64,000 nt of DNA from Anadara kagoshimensis. Its lineage: Eukaryota; Mollusca; Bivalvia; Arcoida; Arcidae. The translations under genes were made by a program, and so were the position numbers. This document shows positions 1,347 through 46,863 of this stretch, piece after piece; the stretch's first letter is position 1, and every line of letters starts with the position of its first letter. Location: the NCBI GenBank assembly GCA_021292105.1, contig CM037860.1:17378698-17442697 (forward strand), written 5' to 3'. The notes beneath the pieces were generated by a model. It ran no database searches. It worked only from the letters and a program-made list of their open reading frames with translations, and had not been told where the DNA came from.

Positions 1347-4300
1347 GTATGTCGGGCATATAGAGTTATTCCTTTTATATTTTTAAATTGTATATCATTC
1401 TCACTGAATTTAAAGAGATTAACTTTCAACTTTCAGTGTCTTTTTTAGCTCACCTGAGCCAAAGGCTCAGATGAGCTATTGCAATCTATCACCGTCCGTC
1501 GTCCGTCGTTCGTCGTCCGTCGTCCGTCGTGCGTCGTGTGTAAACTTTACATTTTAATCTTCTCCTCCAAAACTACTGGGCCATATTTGATGAAACTCGG
1601 TGACTATCATGCCTAGGTAACAGCTTTTCAAAATTGTGTTCGGGGTTTGGCCACGCCCAACAAGATGGCCGCTGTTACTAAAAATAGCAAAAAGACAAAA
1701 AAATCTTCTTCTCTGAAACCAAAAGGTGCAGGCAAATTTTGATTGGATATTTGGATTCAGCATACTTGGGAACATTAAAATTGTGTTTTTCATGAAAATT
1801 AGACGAAAAATGGGTTACGCGTTTTTTGCGTAAAATTACGTAATTTTTAAAATGAGACATTTATTGTTATAACTTTATAACGGCTGAAGATAATTGTATG
1901 GAGTTTTCACTGTTGATCTTGTCTTGCAATTTTCTTCCAATTGATGTCAAGGTCGAAGGTCAAGGTCATGTCCCAGTTTTTGACCTTTGATAAAAAATGC
2001 TATTTTTTTAACATTTCTTGTGATAATGGCGTAGGATTTTCAGTTATTTGTAGGTATTGACATGACGATCATTTTGATACATAGATCAGGGTCATGGGTT
2101 CAAAGGTCAAGGTCACAGATGTCTAAGAATACCAAAATAGTTAATTATCTGCAAAACTATGAATTTTTTGTATAGGCATGTATATCAGAATATTGTAGGT
2201 AATGGCACAATGGTCATTTGGATATATGAATAAAGGTCATTGGTTCAAAGGTCAAGGTCACAGATGTAAACAAGTACTGAAATGGTTAATTATCTCAAAA
2301 ACTATAAACTTTTTGTATAGGCATGTATATTGGAATATTGTAGGTATTGGCCTAACGATCATTTTGATATATGAATGAAGGTCATAGGTTCAAAGGTCAA
2401 GGTCAAAGATGCGAATGAATACTTAAATGGTTAATTATCTCAAAAACTATAAACTTTTTGTATAGGCATGTATATTGGAATATTGTAGGTATTGGCCTAA
2501 TGATCATTTTGATATATGAATGAAGGTCATAGGTTCAAAGGTCAAGGTCAAAGATGCGAACGAATACTTAAATGGTTAATTATCTCAAAAACTATAAACT
2601 TTTTGTATAGGCATGTATATTGGAATATTGTAGGTATTGGCCTAATGATCATTTCGATATATGAATGAAGGTCATAGGTTCAAAGGTCAAGGTCATAGAT
2701 GCAAATGAATACTTAAATGGTTAATTATCTCAAAAACTATAAACTTTGTATAGGCATGTATTTTAGAATATTGTAGGTATTAGCCTATCGATCATTTTGA
2801 TATATGAATGAAGGTTATAGGTTCAAAGGTCAAGGTCATAGATGCAAATGAATACTTAAATGGTTAATTATCTCAAAAACTATAAACTCTTTGTATAGGC
2901 ATGTATATTGGAATATTGTAGGTATTAACCTAATGCACATTTTAAAATACAGATGTTTTAGCTGTTTATATTATATATTGTAGCTAGACTTTAAATATGT
3001 TATATATAGCATCCTTATAATTATAATAATTATTATAATTAATTTGCAAAAATACTTGCATATTATTGGCCCTTACTGCTGAAAATTTTGATATTCTTTT
3101 TTATTAATGTCATTGACCATTGAACCTCTGCATAAGATATGTACTGTTCCTCAGGTGAGCGTTAAGGCCCATGGGCCTCTTGTTTCATTTATAGTATATT
3201 CTATTTTATTTTGTTCTAATGTCCCTCTGACGATTTATTAAAAATCAGTATTTTTTGTCGCAATAAGTATGGCACAATAAACATGATAAACAAGTCTCGT
3301 TGATCAGTGAGAATTGAGATAAATACAATACATATGTACAAATTTCTGCAATGGCAAAAGTATTCTGACGGGGACATAAAATTATTTTCAATCAATTAGT
3401 AGAAAAAAATTCCAGTACTTGTGGTGTTCAGTTTTTAGGACTGACAATTGTTAATCTCCATGTTTGTTCTGTTTTCTAAAATATCAAAGCACTGACAGTG
3501 CTGATAATATAACTGTTTATATTGACAGGTTGTAAAGATTTGTTAAACAAATTAATAGAGCCGTCACAAGAAAAGCGTCTTCCATTAACAGACTGTGAGA
3601 CACATCAGTGGGTTACTGCATGTTCTAAGCTTCCATTTCATCCATTCCACTACTTCCCGAAAGAAAAAGGCATGAAATCACAGGTATGGGATTTGACACG
3701 TTTCAACTTTTTAATTTTAACAAAGCGCAACCATTGCTGTATTAGGAGTTCTAATGTATTACATTATAATAAAAAGAAAATACAATGTTGGAAAGATTTT
3801 CTGACAAAATATGTTGATGGATTGATCCAGAAAGATTTGCCACTTATCTGCATCTTCATCCATTCATTCATTCATTCATCAATATAGTTACTTACTATTT
3901 ATCTATCCATCAAATCATTCATCATTGAATATCATTCAACTTGCAGTTTATGCACAAAAACATTGCTTGAAGTAAAGAAATTGATTTTATAAATCAGTAA
4001 TTTATAAATTTTATCATAGATTTATTTTTGAACAATAGATTTTGATGATTTTTACACAGAATTATATAATTTTATTGCTATAAATTTTGGTATTTTTGTC
4101 CAAACAAATTCTACAACAAATTTGTCCCTAATTGTGTTTGCCTAGATGGTACACTAAAATTTTCAGGATTTTAAAATAAATTATAATAACATTATATGGT
4201 TTATATATATATCTGCTTTATGTGTTAGGAATCCCTTTTATCGGACTTAGAGTGTGAGGTAATTTATTGTCTCTGCTTGCAGGAACAAGAAAGTGTTCAG

Positions 4301-13300: not shown

Positions 13301-16300
13301 GTTCAGCAGTTTGTGATGGTCTTTTAGCAAAAGATAGGTGTAATTACAAACCATGCCAAAGCATAATTGATAATATGGCATAATCCATGACAAAACACAA
13401 AAATCGGAGATTTCAAACATGGCTTGATTAAGTATTTAGTTACAAAATGGCCCTGCACTGTTTCTGTATTTAGCTTTGCAAAGATTGCAATAACTGATCC
13501 CTGACCTGTCTTATGAGATATGCTTTTTATCCCCGCCTTATGAAGAAAGAGGGGAATACTAAATTTGAGTTTCCGTCTGTCCATCCTTCCTTCCTTCCTT
13601 CCTTCTGTCCTTCAGTCTTGTCTGTACTAATTCTCCAAAACTGAAGCAATATTTCACAAAACTTGATGCAAAGTATCAACATAGATAGGAGATGCGCATA
13701 TCATAATCCAAGTTGCTTTGCTCATTTTCCTCAGATTTATGGCCCTTTGAACATAAGTGCAAAAAAGAACCTGCTTGCAGGGGATCCTAATTCACTGAAT
13801 TTTCACTGTATTTAAATTTGTTCTGATGTTTTATTTCAATTCAAATCAAATTATCTTCTATTTTTTATTTTCAAACAGCTGGAGACGCAGATAATCCATC
13901 AGGAGAGGCTTCTGAACAATCAGCTCAAGCGGAAGCTCCCCATCATGAACCTCCAAGGGTCAGCGCAAGCTTTGATTTCAAAGCTTTATGTAGTACTCCT
14001 TCCTGGCTTGGAACAGAGCGGCGTAGGTCAAGAAGAAGAAGGCATGCTTTAGCCTCACCTAACCCAGCAATTGTAAGTTGTTCAAATATCAGTTGCTGAT
14101 TGTTTATAGACAGCAGATATTGTTCATAGATAATATAAATTTCAACTTACAATAAAACATAGTACTGTAAATGTTCTTAATTTTACAGGTTCAAATTTTT
14201 TGTAATTTCCAGTCTTTTTGCAAAGTGTATAATATTCAGGGATTTATGAAATTTGCTCTAAGATCGAGCTTATATATAATTTTACATGTGGTACAAGCGC
14301 GTGGCCTAGTGGTTAAGGTGTTGGACTCATGATTCGAAGGTTGCGGGTTCGATCCCTGGGCCGGGCGATGTGTTGTGTCCTTGAGCAAGACACTTAATTT
14401 CACGTTGTTCCAGTTCACTCAGCTGAAAAATAAATGAGTACCAGCAAAATGCTGGGGGTTAACCTTGCGATGGACAGGCGTCCCATTCAGGGGAGAGTCT
14501 TGTACTCTCAGTCGCTTAACGCCACCGAAACCGGGATAAGCTCCGGCCTGATGGGCCTAATGGCTCGGGACAGACTTTAACTTTAACTTTTAACAATTTT
14601 TTGCAGAAAATTTTGATCACGAAATAAGCAAAAATAAGTACACCATTAATAAACCTTCTTACAGTAGTTTGTCACCTTCAAAATAATTTCTCTCATATGG
14701 ATTGGTTAACTTACCAGGGTATATGGAACTATGTTTGTAATTCTGCTGGAATACACAAAAAATGCATGTGGCATTAAGCATTAAAAGGCAAGTAACTTGT
14801 ACATGACAGATGTCTAGTTAAACAAAGACAAGTCACACACAAGTTGAAATTAAAAAGACCAAACTAGTACCGCTTTGTCGGGTGACAAAAATGATATACA
14901 GCTTTTTGGAAGGTTACACAGCCAAAAATAACCTGCCAAAAACCTGTATTACTTATACTATATGTAAGAAACTTTTGCATTTATATATGCCATATGTAAA
15001 ACACATTTTGGTCATACATATGAAAAACGCATTTCCATGATATGTTGTTTGTATCATAAAACAACATATATTTTCCATGTAGACCCCCTGTGTAAAATAT
15101 ATATTGAAATTTTTCTTTGATAACACTGTTGCTTTGAAGATGTTGATACAAATCATTTCTGTAAAGTATCATCAATATCTGATAGATGGTATTGGAGAAC
15201 CGGTGTGGCCAAAAAGTGAGGCACATGAAGGGACGGATGGACAGACAGATGGATAGAGGGAATGCATTACTATATCCCTTCACTGAGAATGTTTTCTTAA
15301 GTACCATGGATAACTCATTTTTATCCTCAGTATTTCAAAACCTTAATTAAGTACAATTTATTATACCCCTCAAATTATTTGAGGAGGGTATATAGGATTC
15401 ACCATATCTGTCTGTCCGTCTGTGAAAAATCATGCCCCGGGCCATATCTCATAATTGCTTTGGACTATCATTAAACTTCACATGAATAATTTTCATGGTC
15501 CAAAGATGTGTCGTGACCTTGAATGAAGGTCATATCTCCAAGGTCAAGTTAATTGGAAAACATTGAACCCTTGTACATGTTGGGGGTGGGGGTTATTTGT
15601 CTCTCAAGAGACAGTTCTAGTTTAATATATCAGAGCATAACTTTATCTCTTGTCATAATATTCATCTATATGCATTAAGCACTCAACCAATAATCAGCAA
15701 TGATTGGTATTTTTTCAGGATTTGTCAAAACTAAGTACAGATACTATTGGTTCTGCTTGTACAGCAACTTCGGATAATCCAAACTTCCTGTCACCAAATC
15801 AAGCAGCTACACAAATGCCAATCACTCGTCGTTCACTAAGGAGACGGTCTACAAGGAAACGTCGCTCAATATCATGTGGTCCAGGACAACGACGAACAAT
15901 GAGCTTGAAAGATAAACTATTAGCAGCATCTAGTTCACAACCAAACAGTCCTACAAATTTGAATAATCCTTTGATTCAGATTGACCCACCCCGACCGAAT
16001 CCTGTTCCTCGACCGGATAAATTGGGAGTTACTGAGTGTTATACATCTTCACCTTTGACCTTACAAGTGCCAGATATAAAATCAATGTCTTATTCAAATT
16101 TTAATGGACCAACTACTCGCAGTGAACAATTTCCTTCAGATAGTTCCAATCCTTGCTCAACAGTAGATTTGCACGATAGTTGTCCTGATTCAGCAGATAC
16201 TAACTATTCTGCATCGCAGACAGAATTTAAACACGATTGGCCAGATTCAGGTCATGATTCAAATGGATTTAATGTTAAACCCTCTTCCTTGGATAGAAAA

Positions 16301-19300
16301 ACAAAACAACGGTCGAATCATAATTGGTCAGAGAGTAAACAGGATTCTGTGGAAGCAAGGATAGCCTTAGCAGATATTAAGGCAATTGTTCGACCCAAAC
16401 AGTTACAAGCAAGCAAAAATAAAGTGAAATCCAAGGAGTTTGTTTCAGACAATTCCTATCTCTTGCCTAATGTTGATTCTGAACATGTGATAAATTCAAC
16501 GTCAGGATCATATGACCATTTCTCATCAGCTATGCAAACATGTAGTAAATATGATACAAGTTGTGCTCAGTGTAGTCGTTTGTTAATTCCCGAAACGGGG
16601 GATATTATTGTTGAAAGTGGAGAGGAAATGTTTAAAAATGTACATAGTGGTTTATATTCAGATGTGGATAGTGGGGAGGACCACATTGACAGTACCACAG
16701 CATTGTTAGGAGCAACGAGACAATTTCCTGATAAAAAAATGGCAACTGAAAGAAATTTTTGTGATTTAAACTCTATGAGTACTTTAAAAGAAAATATATG
16801 CATTGGGCCTTCTTTAGATTTCAAAGTGCCAGTACCTCTAAACGGGCCAAAATCAGTTGCCTGTGAAACCAAAGAAAGCAATGCAGATAAAATTTTGGCA
16901 AATTCTTGTAGTCGTCGTCTTTCATTAGAGGCTGATAGTCCAGCTGATTCAGTGAATTCTAAACACTCTTCCTGTTCTCTGTATAAAAATATAATTCCCA
17001 GCACACCTAACAGACAAATGTTCAAAATGCCCCTCGCTCGTATAGAGAGCTTCCATAGTGATGATTTTGACTCGTTAGCAGCTGATTTAGATTTCACCAA
17101 TGGGAAATCAGTTTCTACCTCACAAACGCCTTCTGGGTCTGTTAATACGCCAACTTTGCCATGTTTTGCCTATAAACTGCATCTTCTCTCTAAAATGAAA
17201 AGTGGAAAATTAAAACATAACAAGGACAAAGAATACACTTCCAATTCAATAGAATGCAATACTTATGCAAATGAGGAGAACAGAAGAACATTATCGGAAA
17301 ATGAGCCTCGGTAAGTATTGTGGGTAGAGGTACATATGTACTAATTTATGTATACAAACACATTTGCTTGTTGGATTTTCAAAACTGTGTTTTGCCATAA
17401 ATTGAGTGGAATAGAATTATAGTGTTATGCACTCTAATCAGGATTGTTTCACTTATATGAACGCAGTCATTTCTTGGATTGTGGAGGTAACCAGAGTGCC
17501 CCCAGGAAACCATTGACCTTTGGCAATCGATCTGACAAACCTTATTACACCAAGATCTAACGAAATGAGACCCAAACCTTGTTTGATCTATAAGCCTACA
17601 TTTGAACTACCGGTACTCTGTCACAGAGGCCACTGTGACGAATTGTAAACTACATGTACCTGCTGTATTTGATTAATTTGAGTTGATAATGTGAGGTTAG
17701 ATGAAATCTCTTGCAATACAGATTTGTTTTTGAGGAAACTTAAAACCAACCAATTACAAACTTCTCTTTTTTAAAAGATATTACTTAATGTTTCTAAACT
17801 TACACATTTAATACAATTTAGTAAATGTGAAGTAACTGTATATTACCGGTACCTCTATGAACTGAAGATTATTTTATTTTCATTGCAAAAAACTCAAATC
17901 AATATTGTGGTATAGTGTACTTGAAGAATCAAATCTCTATATTTATTTTTTAAAAGTTTTTGTGAGGTGGGGTGTGTGAGTTTTTCAATAGAATTCTATA
18001 TGTGTGCAAATCATAAATCCAAAATCTCTGTATTTATCTTTTAAAAGTCACAGATTAAAATTTTTATGAAAAGGGGCCCTGAGGAATTGATTTTTTATAT
18101 GTGTGTGTGCAAATTAAATCATTAATCCATAATTAAAATGTTAAAATTAAGTACGAAATGTAAATAAAAGTACAGCTGTACTGGTTATCATAAGTATTAT
18201 TATGCAAAGTATAGTTTGTCAAGTTTGATCTGGTCATTTGACCTTTAATTTGAATATTAGATTGGGCTAATAGACTGTGTGATTTAGGTAAGACAGCACG
18301 TTTCAATACCATAAACACCTGGGACCCAGTATTACTATTATCTCTCTATATATATCAACTTAAAATACCCCATAAATTTCACAATTGATATCTGTTTGAA
18401 TATTTAAATTAAAGGTCAAATGGCCAGGTCAAACTTGATGCACTATACTAATCCCCAAAACTACTTTGATTACAACAATATATACTTATTATACAATGTA
18501 CAAAATTTTTATTTTAATGTAGATATTATTTTTTTCCTTTTTTGGATCAATTAACTTTACTGATTTAAAGGTGTAACAGGTGCTTTAATCCTCTCCTTCT
18601 TAATGATTAAAAGATTAAACATTGGATTAACTTAATCCACGGGTATATCAAATAACCCTGGTTAATATTGCTTAACACACAAAACAGTCTCACTTGTGAA
18701 CTGTAAGAATAGGGTTTTAAGTACTTTGTAGTTAAGAGGTTTTATTGTCAGAAAAAAGAAACAAATACAATTGGAACAACCAAACTAACAGTTATAAAAA
18801 GTGATTCAAAATGTGATTGTCAAACTGTTATCGATTTAGAATAGAATCAACATTTTAATATAAAATATTTATTATAGGTTTTACTGTTTGATCCAATAGT
18901 GTGTAACAAAACCTAACCTAACCAATGACAGAAAAACAGACATGTATATTTTATGATAGTAACATTTGATAGTAGCCGTAATCAGTTCATTTACTGATAA
19001 GATTTTCACTTCAGGATCTTCAAGCCTTATGTTAGAGCACCAATCCTTGTAATGTGAACTGTGGGTTTAGTCCTCAGCAGGGACTCTGGATGATCAAGAA
19101 GTATAATTTTGATTTATTTTCCAGTTTTTGAGGTTTTTTGACAGAGTTGGATAGTATTGTTAGGCTCAGCAGTATTGTGGGTCTTTTGATAGTGTTTGAC
19201 AGAGAGTTTCATTTTAAATAAATTTGGATATTTAAGTTAACATGTCAGCACACAACATGATTAAGAGGAATTACCTACAATATTATACACGTTACAGGTT

Positions 19301-43189: not shown

Positions 43190-43505
43190 CACTATTATAC
43201 TATCAAAAATTTCCTAGTGTTATACTAGTGTGTAATGTCTCTTTATTGCTAATGATAAATAGTCTCTGATTTCAGTCCGAGGCTAGATAACACGATTCCA
43301 TTGGATTAAAGTTATATAGTTGTAGATTTTTTACGATTTATCCATCTTTATCAATAGTTATGATTACACTTCTGTCGTACCCCGCTACTTAAATGTTCTC
43401 TTTTTTAAAAGTCAGTTGCTAATGACTCTGGTCTCCATCTTTTCCGTATTCTCTATGCTGTTTTGAAACACCAGATCAGAAATATATTTAAATTCAGACG
43501 CAATT
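43190..43505 (-). pseudogene. Tandem copy 3 of the TRIM propeller 3' end, more decayed
   Basis: A third copy of the same 3' end, its anchor TGGTCTCCAT 316 bases beyond copy 2. It keeps the motif order (CCATCTTTATCAA, GTCTCCATCTT) but is more diverged and not openly translatable. The shared 3' flank (AGTATTACCAC, CACACCACTATT) shows the duplicated unit includes the 3' untranslated region. Confidence 0.75.
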
Positions 43506-43539
43506 TTAATATGAATCAACAGGGATCTTTAATGGTCTG

Positions 43540-43860
43540 AACTCTGCAGTATTACCACGCCACTAATCTACTGTTAAACATAATCTAGCTAAAGCTAGAT
43601 AATAGGGCTTGCCAATTCCATTGGATTTCACATCAGTTAAAGTTTTTTTTTTATTAATTTAACATCTTTATCAAGAGTAGTGATCACACCTCTGTCGCAC
43701 TCTGCTACACAGATGTTCTCTTTTAAGCCAGTTGCTGATGACTCTGGTCTCCATCTTGTTAAATCCTTTCCGTGGCCTCTATGCCATTTTGGGACACCAG
43801 ATGAGATACATTCAAAATCAAAACGAATTTTAATATAAATCAACAGGAATCTTTAATGGT
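43540..43860 (-). pseudogene. Tandem copy 2 of the TRIM propeller 3' end
   Basis: It repeats the last blade region and 3' flank of the TRIM gene. The translation includes KDLTRWRPESSATGLKENI and CDRGVITTLDKD, aligning to KDLSRWRPGSLATDLKDNI and YDRGVVVTLDKD in the intact gene. Its anchor TGGTCTCCAT is 386 bases from that of the gene. The frame is only partly open and there is no RING part, so it is a 3'-end duplicate. Confidence 0.85.
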
Positions 43861-43878: not shown

Positions 43879-44622
43879 TCACACCACTGTATTTTCTACT
43901 GTTAAAAATTTACTAGTGTTATACACGTGAGCAATGTCTCTTTGTTTGCCAAGAATAAATATTCTCTGATTTGAGTCTGAAGCTAGATAATACGGCTTGC
44001 CAATTCCATTGGATTTTGCATCAGTTAAAGTTTCTTTTACGAATTTTCCATCCTTATCAAGAGTAACGACTACACCTCTATCATAGTCTGCCACAAAAAT
44101 GTTGTCTTTTAAGTCAGTCGCTAATGACCCTGGTCTCCATCTTGATAAATCTTTTCTGTGGTCTTTATTCCATTTTCGAATACCACATTCTGTTGGAGCA
44201 TTGATGCAGGCGATTTCAGCACCATTTTCAAGATTTACAATTCGAATTGCGCTTTTGCTCCAATCTGAGATGATGATTTGACCACTTGAGTTTGCTGTAA
44301 GGTGTATTGGCAAGGCTTCGTTTAGATATATATTTTTGATATGATCGCCTTTCTGAGTAAAAACTGTCAACGGAAGAGAATGGGAGTAGTCTACATTGCC
44401 AGCTACAACACAACGCTCTCCGAAAGAAGTCAGAGGAATTGACACTCGATTGACACTTTGAACAGGGATATAATTTTGCCACGTGTTGTTTTTACACATA
44501 AAAACAACTTTTGAACTGTCACTGACTACTATCGTATCGCCACACACGGTTATGTATGATGGTGTTATTTTGTCAAGTCTGTAAATTCTTTTAATTTCTC
44601 CCTTGAGATCAATTGTTTTCAT
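43879..44622 (-). CDS. TRIM C-terminal beta-propeller (NHL-like) part, separate frame
   Basis: 247 residues. It begins MKTIDLKGEIKRIYRLDKIT, exactly where the upstream TRIM frame stops, so by homology it is the substrate-binding C-terminal half of the same protein. Recurrent blade endings are visible: TIVVSDSS, IIISDWSKSAIRIVN, IFVADYDRGVVVTLDKDG and FILGKQRDIAHVYN. Such six-bladed propellers recruit substrates or RNA in TRIM-NHL proteins. The start codon overlaps the upstream stop (ATGA), placing this frame at -1 relative to the N-terminal half. It could be a real frameshift mutation, a base-calling error in the adjacent AATAATAACAAAAC run, reinitiation, or a second cistron; without transcripts I favour mutation or error. 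Confidence 0.8.
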   Translation of the reverse strand: MKTIDLKGEIKRIYRLDKITPSYITVCGDTIVVSDSSKVVFMCKNNTWQNYIPVQSVNRVSIPLTSFGERCVVAGNVDYSHSLPLTVFTQKGDHIKNIYLNEALPIHLTANSSGQIIISDWSKSAIRIVNLENGAEIACINAPTECGIRKWNKDHRKDLSRWRPGSLATDLKDNIFVADYDRGVVVTLDKDGKFVKETLTDAKSNGIGKPYYLASDSNQRIFILGKQRDIAHVYNTSKFLTVENTVV

Positions 44623-46052
44623 GTTTTGTTATTATTATCATGTATGATAAGTGTTTCGTCGCCATATTTAGATACGACATTGGCGCAAGGTATTCTGGTA
44701 TCATCATTGGAATGTAGGGGAATTGTATATTTTTCTGGCAAGTGTGAAAAATCTAGATTGACTTTAACGTCCATACTCTTAACTCTGTTTGTCTGAGTTG
44801 ATTTATTGCATTTTCTACAACTCGCTGTCTGTGTGGCTACACTGGAGGCTACAGATGACTTCACTGGAAGCTCTGTTTGTGTAGATTTTATTTTCGTAAG
44901 GACTGAGCAGTCAGAGGCAGATTCATTTTCGACATTTAAACCACTAATTGAACCATTAGTATATGTTAATGTAAACATCCTTTTCTCCCCTTTATCGTTC
45001 TCTTTTAGGTCTTTAAATGTTACAGCAGTAATTGGAAGGTTGGTATTTTGCGCTTGTGATATTTCGTCATAGTTTTGCAACCGTAACAATTGTTGACGTA
45101 AACTTTTCTCTAAGGAGAGAATTTCAATGTCTTTCCCATGATGCAAGACGGTTTTACAAAATTTTATGCTGTTATTCATTATACTAATGACATGCTTGAG
45201 CTGCTGTATTTTCTGAACCCTGTCTTTTATAGGCAGTGCAAAACTATCTCCAACTTCTTTCAACGCTTCCGTTTTTTCTTTCACTACAGTTGATACCATA
45301 TCGTCAGCTTTTTCGATTATTTCTTGCATAAATTTTGATTCATGGTCTTGTAAATGTTTCTTAAAAGATTCTTCTTTGATCAGTTCACCTTGTAATGTTT
45401 CATATCGTTTGTCAACTTCTAAAACGAGCTGTTGTAAGCTATACATGCAATTATCTAAAGCATCGGGTAATTCAGTATGGGTATGACCCTTGTGTTCGGC
45501 AAGCATACATTCTCGACAAATTGCCATTGAACATGGCTGACAAAAGTAGTACATTTCTTCGGAAGCGTGATAGGGACACATCATTTTCTGAATGTGACGT
45601 ACTCTCGAGTCATATTTTCCATGCTTCAAATCTTCTAATGTCACAACAGTATGAGATATTGTATATTTGGTAAATGTGTGAGATTTGGCACATGTATAAC
45701 ACAAAAAATCGCTGCATTCTAAACACTTCTTTGTGGCAATATTTTGATTCCCGAAAGCTGAACACACTTGGCAAATTAACTTTTCAACAACCTTTGTTTT
45801 TAGAACTTGTAATAGATTGAAATAATACATGTTGGTATCAAATCTACATAGTTTATTTTCCCTTCGGAATAACTGCATTTTACATACCGGACAGGTAACT
45901 TTCTTGGATGTTGATTCATTGCAAAGCTTTTGTATACATTTCATGCAGAAGGTATCTAGGCATGGTAATATTTTTGGGTCTTTATATACATCAGAACATA
46001 TTTTACAAGTCAGATCAATCGTCTGGGCTGTCCCATTGAATGTTTCAAACAA
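44619..46052 (-). CDS. TRIM-family E3 ubiquitin ligase, N-terminal RING/B-box/coiled-coil part
   Basis: 477 residues from ATG at 46052. The RING (residues 16-57) has ligands C16, C19, C31, C36, C39, C54 and C57; the usual His after PCL is Asp33. B-box 1 is about 93-140 (CQVC...CLEC..FLC..C). B-box 2 is about 158-195 (CPYH...FC..C...IC..C...HKGH). A coiled coil runs about 203-330. The linker (about 345-450) contains KSTQT, VATQT and KSTQT at 389-421, which match dynein light chain LC8-binding motifs. TRIM proteins are cytoplasmic or nuclear ubiquitin ligases that often act in innate immunity. The frame ends at TGA overlapping the ATG of the next frame, which carries the expected beta-propeller; one ~720-residue protein would be normal for this class. 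An AG at 46073-46074 after a pyrimidine-rich tract suggests a spliced 5' leader. Confidence 0.9.
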   Translation of the reverse strand: MFETFNGTAQTIDLTCKICSDVYKDPKILPCLDTFCMKCIQKLCNESTSKKVTCPVCKMQLFRRENKLCRFDTNMYYFNLLQVLKTKVVEKLICQVCSAFGNQNIATKKCLECSDFLCYTCAKSHTFTKYTISHTVVTLEDLKHGKYDSRVRHIQKMMCPYHASEEMYYFCQPCSMAICRECMLAEHKGHTHTELPDALDNCMYSLQQLVLEVDKRYETLQGELIKEESFKKHLQDHESKFMQEIIEKADDMVSTVVKEKTEALKEVGDSFALPIKDRVQKIQQLKHVISIMNNSIKFCKTVLHHGKDIEILSLEKSLRQQLLRLQNYDEISQAQNTNLPITAVTFKDLKENDKGEKRMFTLTYTNGSISGLNVENESASDCSVLTKIKSTQTELPVKSSVASSVATQTASCRKCNKSTQTNRVKSMDVKVNLDFSHLPEKYTIPLHSNDDTRIPCANVVSKYGDETLIIHDNNNKT

Positions 46053-46194
46053 AAGTGTAGTGGTTGGAATGTCTACAAAATGAAAGAAAGGAATCTAAAT
46101 TTTGTTGAAAAACATGTGCTTAACGGTAATAGACTGTACTAAAACATTTAAACGCCATTTCTTGCTTATGGCCATTCCACTCTCGTATCGAGTT

Positions 46195-46475
46195 TAGTTA
46201 AAAAGTTTTATGGTCATCATCATAATATTGTTGATATGCATGACATTTCTCTATCCAAAATTACCATGAATATATTTGACGTTCCATAGTTCCATGTCCC
46301 TTTTATTCTTATTCATAACTGAACAGGAGATGCTTACCCTTTTGGAGCACCCGGTCTCACTTTCTTGATTAAAGTTCACGTATGGTACTTAATTTGCCAA
46401 TTTCAAAGTTTTTACTTTGCTTTAGGATTGTGGTTTAGACATGGATTGGTATGATTGTTTTTATTCTGTATGCTG
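46195..46475 (+). mobile_element. Retroelement 3' end (family R)
   Basis: Begins with ATGGTCATCATCATAATATTG (the ORF end region), then GGAGCACCCGGTCTCACTTT and the AAGTTTTTACTTTGCTTTAGG tail. Broken and truncated. It lies just upstream of the TRIM start. Confidence 0.65.
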
Positions 46476-46863
46476 TCTCCTTTTTTCCTGATACAACTTC
46501 AAACAAACTTATTATTGATGACGTACTAGAAATTTGTAAATCTAGGTGTAATCATGGCCAAAAGAATTATTTGTATTTAAAAAAAAATTTTCAATGGAAA
46601 TTGGGTTTCTTACCTTTTGTGGCCACTTGTCCCATTTTCCAGATCCTACATTGGTAAAACAAGGATACTTTTTTTACGATTTTCAGTCCTTGTATCGATT
46701 TCCTTAACGTTATCAACAGAACACCGCAGCACAATTTTCTGTAAAACAAACATATTTTTACAAATTATATGGTCAACATAGTCATTCCAAAATAACTTTA
46801 TTACTCTTTAAATAGTATAATTAAGAAAATAATTTATTGAAAATTGTGGGATAAATAGACCTT

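Follow-up and report, generated by a model that had tools for sequence, protein, structure and literature searches.

The gene studied here lies in a 64,000-nucleotide stretch of the genome of the bivalve Anadara kagoshimensis (the window; assembly GCA_021292105.1, contig CM037860.1, positions 17,378,698 to 17,442,697) and resembles two kinds of described systems: the TRIM2/TRIM3-type TRIM-NHL ligases, which we take to be class VII, and proteins with several binding motifs for the dynein light chain LC8. As in the former, a RING finger, a B-box, and a coiled coil are followed by an NHL-type β-propeller. Unlike TRIM2 and TRIM3, the window gene has three TQT sites, an aspartate instead of a histidine in its RING finger, and a propeller that is out of frame; again in contrast to the TRIM2/TRIM3-type, no filamin domain was among the Pfam matches of its main product (P0001). 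As in 53BP1, ASCIZ, and Nup159, to go by the excerpted text of the respective reports, several LC8-type motifs are situated in a likely disordered segment. 53BP1 trimers carry three LC8 motifs beside an oligomerization domain (PMC12187134, in excerpt), and this proximity to a self-associating domain is mirrored by the window gene, the linker of which adjoins the coiled coil. LC8 binding has been measured for 53BP1, ASCIZ, and Nup159, whereas it is predicted for the window gene, which, unlike these clients, encodes a RING protein. Judged by titles and abstract starts among the matches listed, no TRIM protein was presented as a direct LC8 client in the open-access literature.

Gene model and domain architecture

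The gene is encoded on the minus strand, and its first ORF (ORF1) contains a RING finger, two B-boxes, and a coiled coil (Table 1); with all of these present, it belongs to the TRIM (RBCC) family. This architecture had been proposed by an earlier, sequence-only reading of the DNA and was borne out by Pfam, by the helices of an AlphaFold model, and by fold matches. The RING finger matched those of TRIM3 and TRIM2 in the PDB, human TRIM2 was among the best RING structure matches of the fold search, and the nearest solved relative by sequence was TRIM3 (8amr; E 2.6e-21). The fold match to the tripartite motif of KAP1 (6qaj and 7z36 chains) had a TM-score of about 0.31–0.37 by query length. Mean pLDDT of the model was 66.9; the coiled coil was modeled as helices spanning residues 209–319, 322–340, and 342–347, with pLDDT mostly >80. 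The exon 2 ORF (ORF1) contains no in-frame ATG upstream of the RING finger. A short first exon is proposed further upstream, the phase of which is compatible with exon 2: in this predicted gene model, the acceptor before 46072 is in phase with exon 1 (ATG at 46635), and translation would begin with MGQVATK-DIPTTT.

Table 1. Features of the TRIM gene and its surroundings in the window.
Feature	Position	Strand	Remarks
Proposed exon 1	46614..46635	−	ATG GGA CAA GTG GCC ACA AAA G, then GTAAGA donor
Proposed phase-1 intron	46073..46613	−	GTAAGA ... TTTTGTAG; inferred
ORF1 (P0001)	46094-44619	−	RING, B-box 1, B-box 2, coiled coil, linker
Exon 2 (ORF1 part)	44619..46072	−	RING to TQT linker and propeller start, stop TGA
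RING finger, residues 28-74	45873..46013	−	Pfam zf-C3HC4, E 7.2e-7, above cut-off
Asp47 replacing the RING zinc-ligand His	45954..45956	−	alignment of 14 rows
B-box 1, residues 108-148	45651..45773	−	ANCHR-like B-box, 24.4 bits, cut-off of 27 not reached
B-box 2, residues 169-208	45471..45590	−	Pfam zf-B_box, E 2.4e-10
Coiled-coil helices, residues 209-347	45054..45470	−	AlphaFold model
Ser/Thr/Lys-rich linker, residues 349-455	44730..45050	−	probably disordered
LC8-type site 1, KIKSTQTE, residues 401-408	44871..44894	−	
LC8-type site 2, SSVATQTA, residues 417-424	44823..44846	−	
LC8-type site 3, CNKSTQTN, residues 429-436	44787..44810	−	
Frame break, linker/propeller start versus remaining propeller	44619..44631	−	
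ORF2 (P0002), remaining NHL-type β-propeller	43879..44628	−	249 aa
Degenerate tandem copies of the gene 3′ end	43195..43837	−	pieces with 77-94% DNA identity; translations with stop codons

ORF1 stops at 44619-44621, and the propeller resumes in a different frame (ORF2), where Pfam recognized an NHL repeat (E = 1.8e-4). Hence, the NHL repeat that marks the TRIM-NHL subclass is downstream of the TRIM ORF but out of frame with it. The linker had been proposed to connect the coiled coil with the propeller of one protein; it does follow the coiled coil, but because ORF1 ends where it does and the propeller is in another frame, the linker is near the C-terminus of the protein as sequenced. This product would comprise RING finger, B-boxes, coiled coil, and the putative ladder of LC8 sites, without most of the propeller. 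ORF2 shares 38% identity, over residues 3–142, with the propeller of another TRIM locus of this genome, L031, which reads through the equivalent of the frame break in one frame. An intron across the break is disfavored because L031 is collinear at the same place. Programmed frameshifting at 44619-44631 is not favored either; inspection by eye revealed none of the usual slippery heptamers.

The frame break may be an assembly error, a truncated allele, or a sign of early decay. As ORF2 is also open, over 249 codons, any break would be either recent or an assembly error. Frame break and Asp47 together suggest relaxed selection on the window gene, which may be losing its propeller. In a decay scenario, the TRIM gene would be a recent pseudogene or a segregating null allele, and its TQT sites a functionless relic. 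Besides the frame break, the replacement in the RING finger fits such a scenario: ≥90% of the 14 aligned rows have His in column 47, and the row with Asp is that of the window gene, while the other aligned paralogues keep His. Also, degenerate copies adjoin the gene at its 3′ side, and the L031 propeller likewise shifts frame, near its end, elsewhere than in the window gene (C16:941000-950000; locus partly masked). However, 491 codons have stayed open despite DNA of 32% GC, the remaining zinc ligands of the RING finger are retained, those of the B-boxes occupy conserved columns (14-row alignment; invariant for B-box 1), and ORF2 has stayed open too, which makes decay, although worth considering, rather unlikely.

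Three TQT sites in the post-coil linker

Three closely spaced TQT motifs had been singled out in the linker, an observation confirmed by coordinates, spacings, and shuffle tests. The motifs are exactly where they had been placed: the minus strand of 44790-44888 translates to KSTQTELPVKSSVASSVATQTASCRKCNKSTQT. Of the accompanying numbers, the spacings (16 and 12 residues) were correct, but the residue numbering was 14 too low, the three pentamers corresponding to residues 403–407, 419–423, and 431–435 of the gene model. TQT thus starts at residues 405, 421, and 433 and is absent from the rest of both ORFs. When the 740 residues of both ORFs were shuffled, three or more TQT per 41-residue span occurred in 4 of 200,000 cases; when the 105-residue linker was shuffled, this was the case in 0 of 200,000. 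The TQT cluster is non-random, and chance is unlikely to account for it. The surrounding linker is probably disordered: the model contains no predicted structure for residues 349–491 (pLDDT <50), in keeping with the unstructured context proposed before, although low pLDDT is weak evidence on its own because few alignment rows cover the linker.

Three TQ sites inside about 30 residues also comply with the usual loose definition of an SQ/TQ cluster, and ATM/ATR-type kinases might phosphorylate the sites instead of LC8 binding them. The motif of these kinases does not require Thr at +1. Yet, each of the three TQ in residues 348–455 is followed by Thr (3/3; p about 3.5e-4, given three TQ and the proportion of Thr in the remaining linker), no SQ or TQ beyond the three TQT is present in the same segment, and the counterpart in L031 is likewise TQT. 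All of this renders a kinase cluster highly improbable.

The quality of the putative sites was graded by the positional rules of PMC6607443, instead of LC8Pred. All three had been assigned to the consensus [K/R]xTQT, which is true for sites 1 and 3; site 2 (VATQT) does not fit. According to the excerpted part of PMC6607443, LC8 sites have no hydrophobic residue larger than Ala at −4, and 7 of 19 sequences predicted by PSSM bound LC8. Site 1 combines favorable residues (Lys at −3, Glu at +2) with a disfavored one (Ile at −4); in site 2, Val at −3 is preceded by a polar residue (Ser at −4), with Ala at +2 counting against it, and in site 3, Lys at −3 likewise follows a polar residue (Asn at −4). 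By the rules in this excerpt, site 3 would be good and site 2 weaker, and site 1 breaks one rule. The gaps between the 8-residue motifs, 8 and 4 residues, fall inside the range of linkers (3 to 41 residues) studied in multivalent ASCIZ–LC8 complexes, where, in the passages of PMC10046861 at hand, heterogeneous binding was tied to linkers of 3, 30, and 41 residues and not to those of 6 and 9.

The two KSTQT copies of the window gene differ synonymously only, which was not used as evidence because they had been picked for peptide identity. Elsewhere in the window, a serine-rich ORF of 536 aa (15704-17314, plus strand) contains ASQTEF, AMQTCS, and TSQTPS; Pfam gave no match to it even at E values of up to 1. 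Upstream of it, 3513-3887 looks, on visual inspection only, like the end of a kinase domain.

TRIM paralogues and LC8 genes in the same genome

Searching the genome of A. kagoshimensis with P0001 gave 88 matches, itself included, 51 of which were covered by a survey of 40 loci (longest ORF each) and 10 post-coil pieces (L031 holds two matches). For L012 and L016, the longest ORF was not the TRIM ORF, and reading the latter yielded no TQT; in these two and in L021, the TRIM ORF does not reach the expected linker start or stops shortly beyond it. Post-coil TQT was present in four surveyed loci: the window gene (three), L009 (one), L015 (four), and L031 (one). One more TQT, in L005, was left uncounted because it immediately precedes an ATG at the start of the ORF. 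Over the 34 loci with a recognizable RING finger, 9 of 55 TQ in the tails were TQT. The four loci account for 9 of 11, compared with 0 of 44 in the other 30, the groups being defined by this very outcome; of the 44, 29 are contributed by the repeat arrays in L002 and L003. These two loci are neighbors (C3:42.27-42.29 Mb), and short repeats, for example, REITPGAKQTTQDGNP, make up the long array that forms their post-coil linker.

In a tree of 32 of the 40 loci (two duplicates and six loci without the RING pattern were dropped), the window gene grouped with L031 and L002/L003 (97/94; inner order open, L031 on a long branch). L009 and L015, also TRIMs with post-coil TQT, were on a separate branch. 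Because these two pairs, window gene/L031 and L009/L015, sit apart, post-coil TQT needs two changes on the tree. L031 is the best propeller relative outside the window locus. Its single TQT site, RDVHTQTE, compared with three in the window gene, breaks no published rule and lies at the same distance from the conserved EI-SLEK motif of the coil: it is located 82 residues after the start of VEIMSLEK, as is site 1 of the window gene after the start of IEILSLEK. L002 and L003, the closest paralogues by their tripartite part, have TQG in the linker and no TQT, at a distance from the coil motif of 85 (L002) and of 95, 207, and 272 residues (L003). A first alignment paired site 1 with both the TQT of L031 and the TQG of L002/L003. 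Once the TQT/TQG letters were masked, site 1 no longer paired with the L031 TQT in any of the three alignment settings, so the homology of the two TQT would rest on spacing only. Sites 2 and 3 had no counterpart in any other surveyed locus, L031 included. An own-genome search with the 62-residue linker matched only itself (four candidates scored), and P0001 had no relatives among the 8 stretches of viral contigs and the 62 stretches of genome contigs that matched the pattern. Conservation of the three motifs, which the sequence-only reading had suggested checking in orthologous bivalve TRIMs, was not supported among the paralogues in this genome, where the single counterpart is that of site 1 in L031.

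The cluster might also have arisen by local duplication and drift in a disordered stretch rich in Ser, Thr, and Lys, without ever being bound by LC8. That sites 2 and 3 are confined to the window gene among the surveyed loci agrees with this notion, and so does the overall proportion of TQT among TQ (9/55 over 34 loci), which shows no marked enrichment across the family. Considering, however, the lack of a single comparable cluster in 200,000 linker shuffles, and the concentration of TQT in four (outcome-defined) loci at 9/11 against 0/44 in the 30 others, a non-functional cluster is quite unlikely.

The post-coil tail of L015 (with L045, C9:42566900-42571999) comprises 538 residues, 14% of them Thr, and contains four TQT; at least four were found in 37 of 20,000 shuffles. 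Variants (VQT, TMT, TNT, and TET) and many T-x-T are also present, and this tail may, by its sequence, be a second and longer ladder. No propeller family was recognized in the scanned parts of L009 and L015 (L015 was scanned up to its last 58 residues). Three TRIM pairs (L006/L007, L010/L011, and L027/L028) are near-identical, each pair 1.3–2.3 Mb apart on one chromosome and in opposite orientation, which suggests uncollapsed assembly duplication.

The proposed partner is encoded by the same organism. Of the 22 matches to PF01221 in its genome, 20 are near full length (one of these contains an internal stop), and most are clustered on C18 and C1 (C18:13601209-13601460, C18:23392375-23424669, C18:29911939-29948083, and C1:22197667-22634036; L046–L051). 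Six copies were translated, and one of them (L046) is identical in 87 of 89 residues to dynein light chain 2 of structure 1pwj. Because two clusters on C18 are mirror images of one another, part of this LC8 gene multiplication may again be uncollapsed assembly duplication.

A putative LC8 docking ladder

Taken together, the window gene is best read as a candidate multivalent LC8 client, the three-site set of which appears unique in the genome. That it is a TRIM-NHL-type ubiquitin-ligase gene with a small docking ladder for LC8 (DYNLL) in its post-coil, probably disordered linker has, in our estimation, about an even chance of being correct. The LC8 ladder proposed earlier is thereby supported in part: the TQT cluster, its unstructured context, the TRIM domains, and the presence of LC8 in the host speak for it, and motif conservation does not.

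LC8 dimerizes and holds two client strands next to each other, and, going by TRIM structures, the linkers of a TRIM dimer would leave the antiparallel coiled coil near its middle. In the best-supported mechanism, as many as three LC8 dimers could staple the paired linkers of one TRIM dimer or, alternatively, bridge two TRIM dimers, which would result in larger assemblies; a comparable arrangement is reported for 53BP1 trimers (PMC12187134). LC8 binding, linker disorder, and stapling or bridging are inferred. The other half of the earlier proposal, attachment to dynein, is less likely because LC8, in the excerpts consulted, is described mostly as a dimerizing hub.

A more far-reaching idea is that LC8 ladders were gained at least twice in TRIMs of this lineage (window gene/L031 and L009/L015) and formed LC8-gated ligases that sense LC8 abundance, the window allele being scaffold-only without a full propeller. 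We regard this as very unlikely. If true, the oligomeric state of such ligase assemblies, and hence their activity, would read LC8 abundance in a genome where the LC8 genes themselves are multiplied.

The motif cluster is real and non-random, its partner plausible, and its function in LC8 binding putative. Should binding fail, the locus would caution against calling TQT clusters LC8 sites by eye. TRIM ligases act through self-assembly, and LC8 is a general dimerizing clip; the two would be joined in a TRIM that carries its own LC8 ladder, a simple way of tuning ligase assembly.
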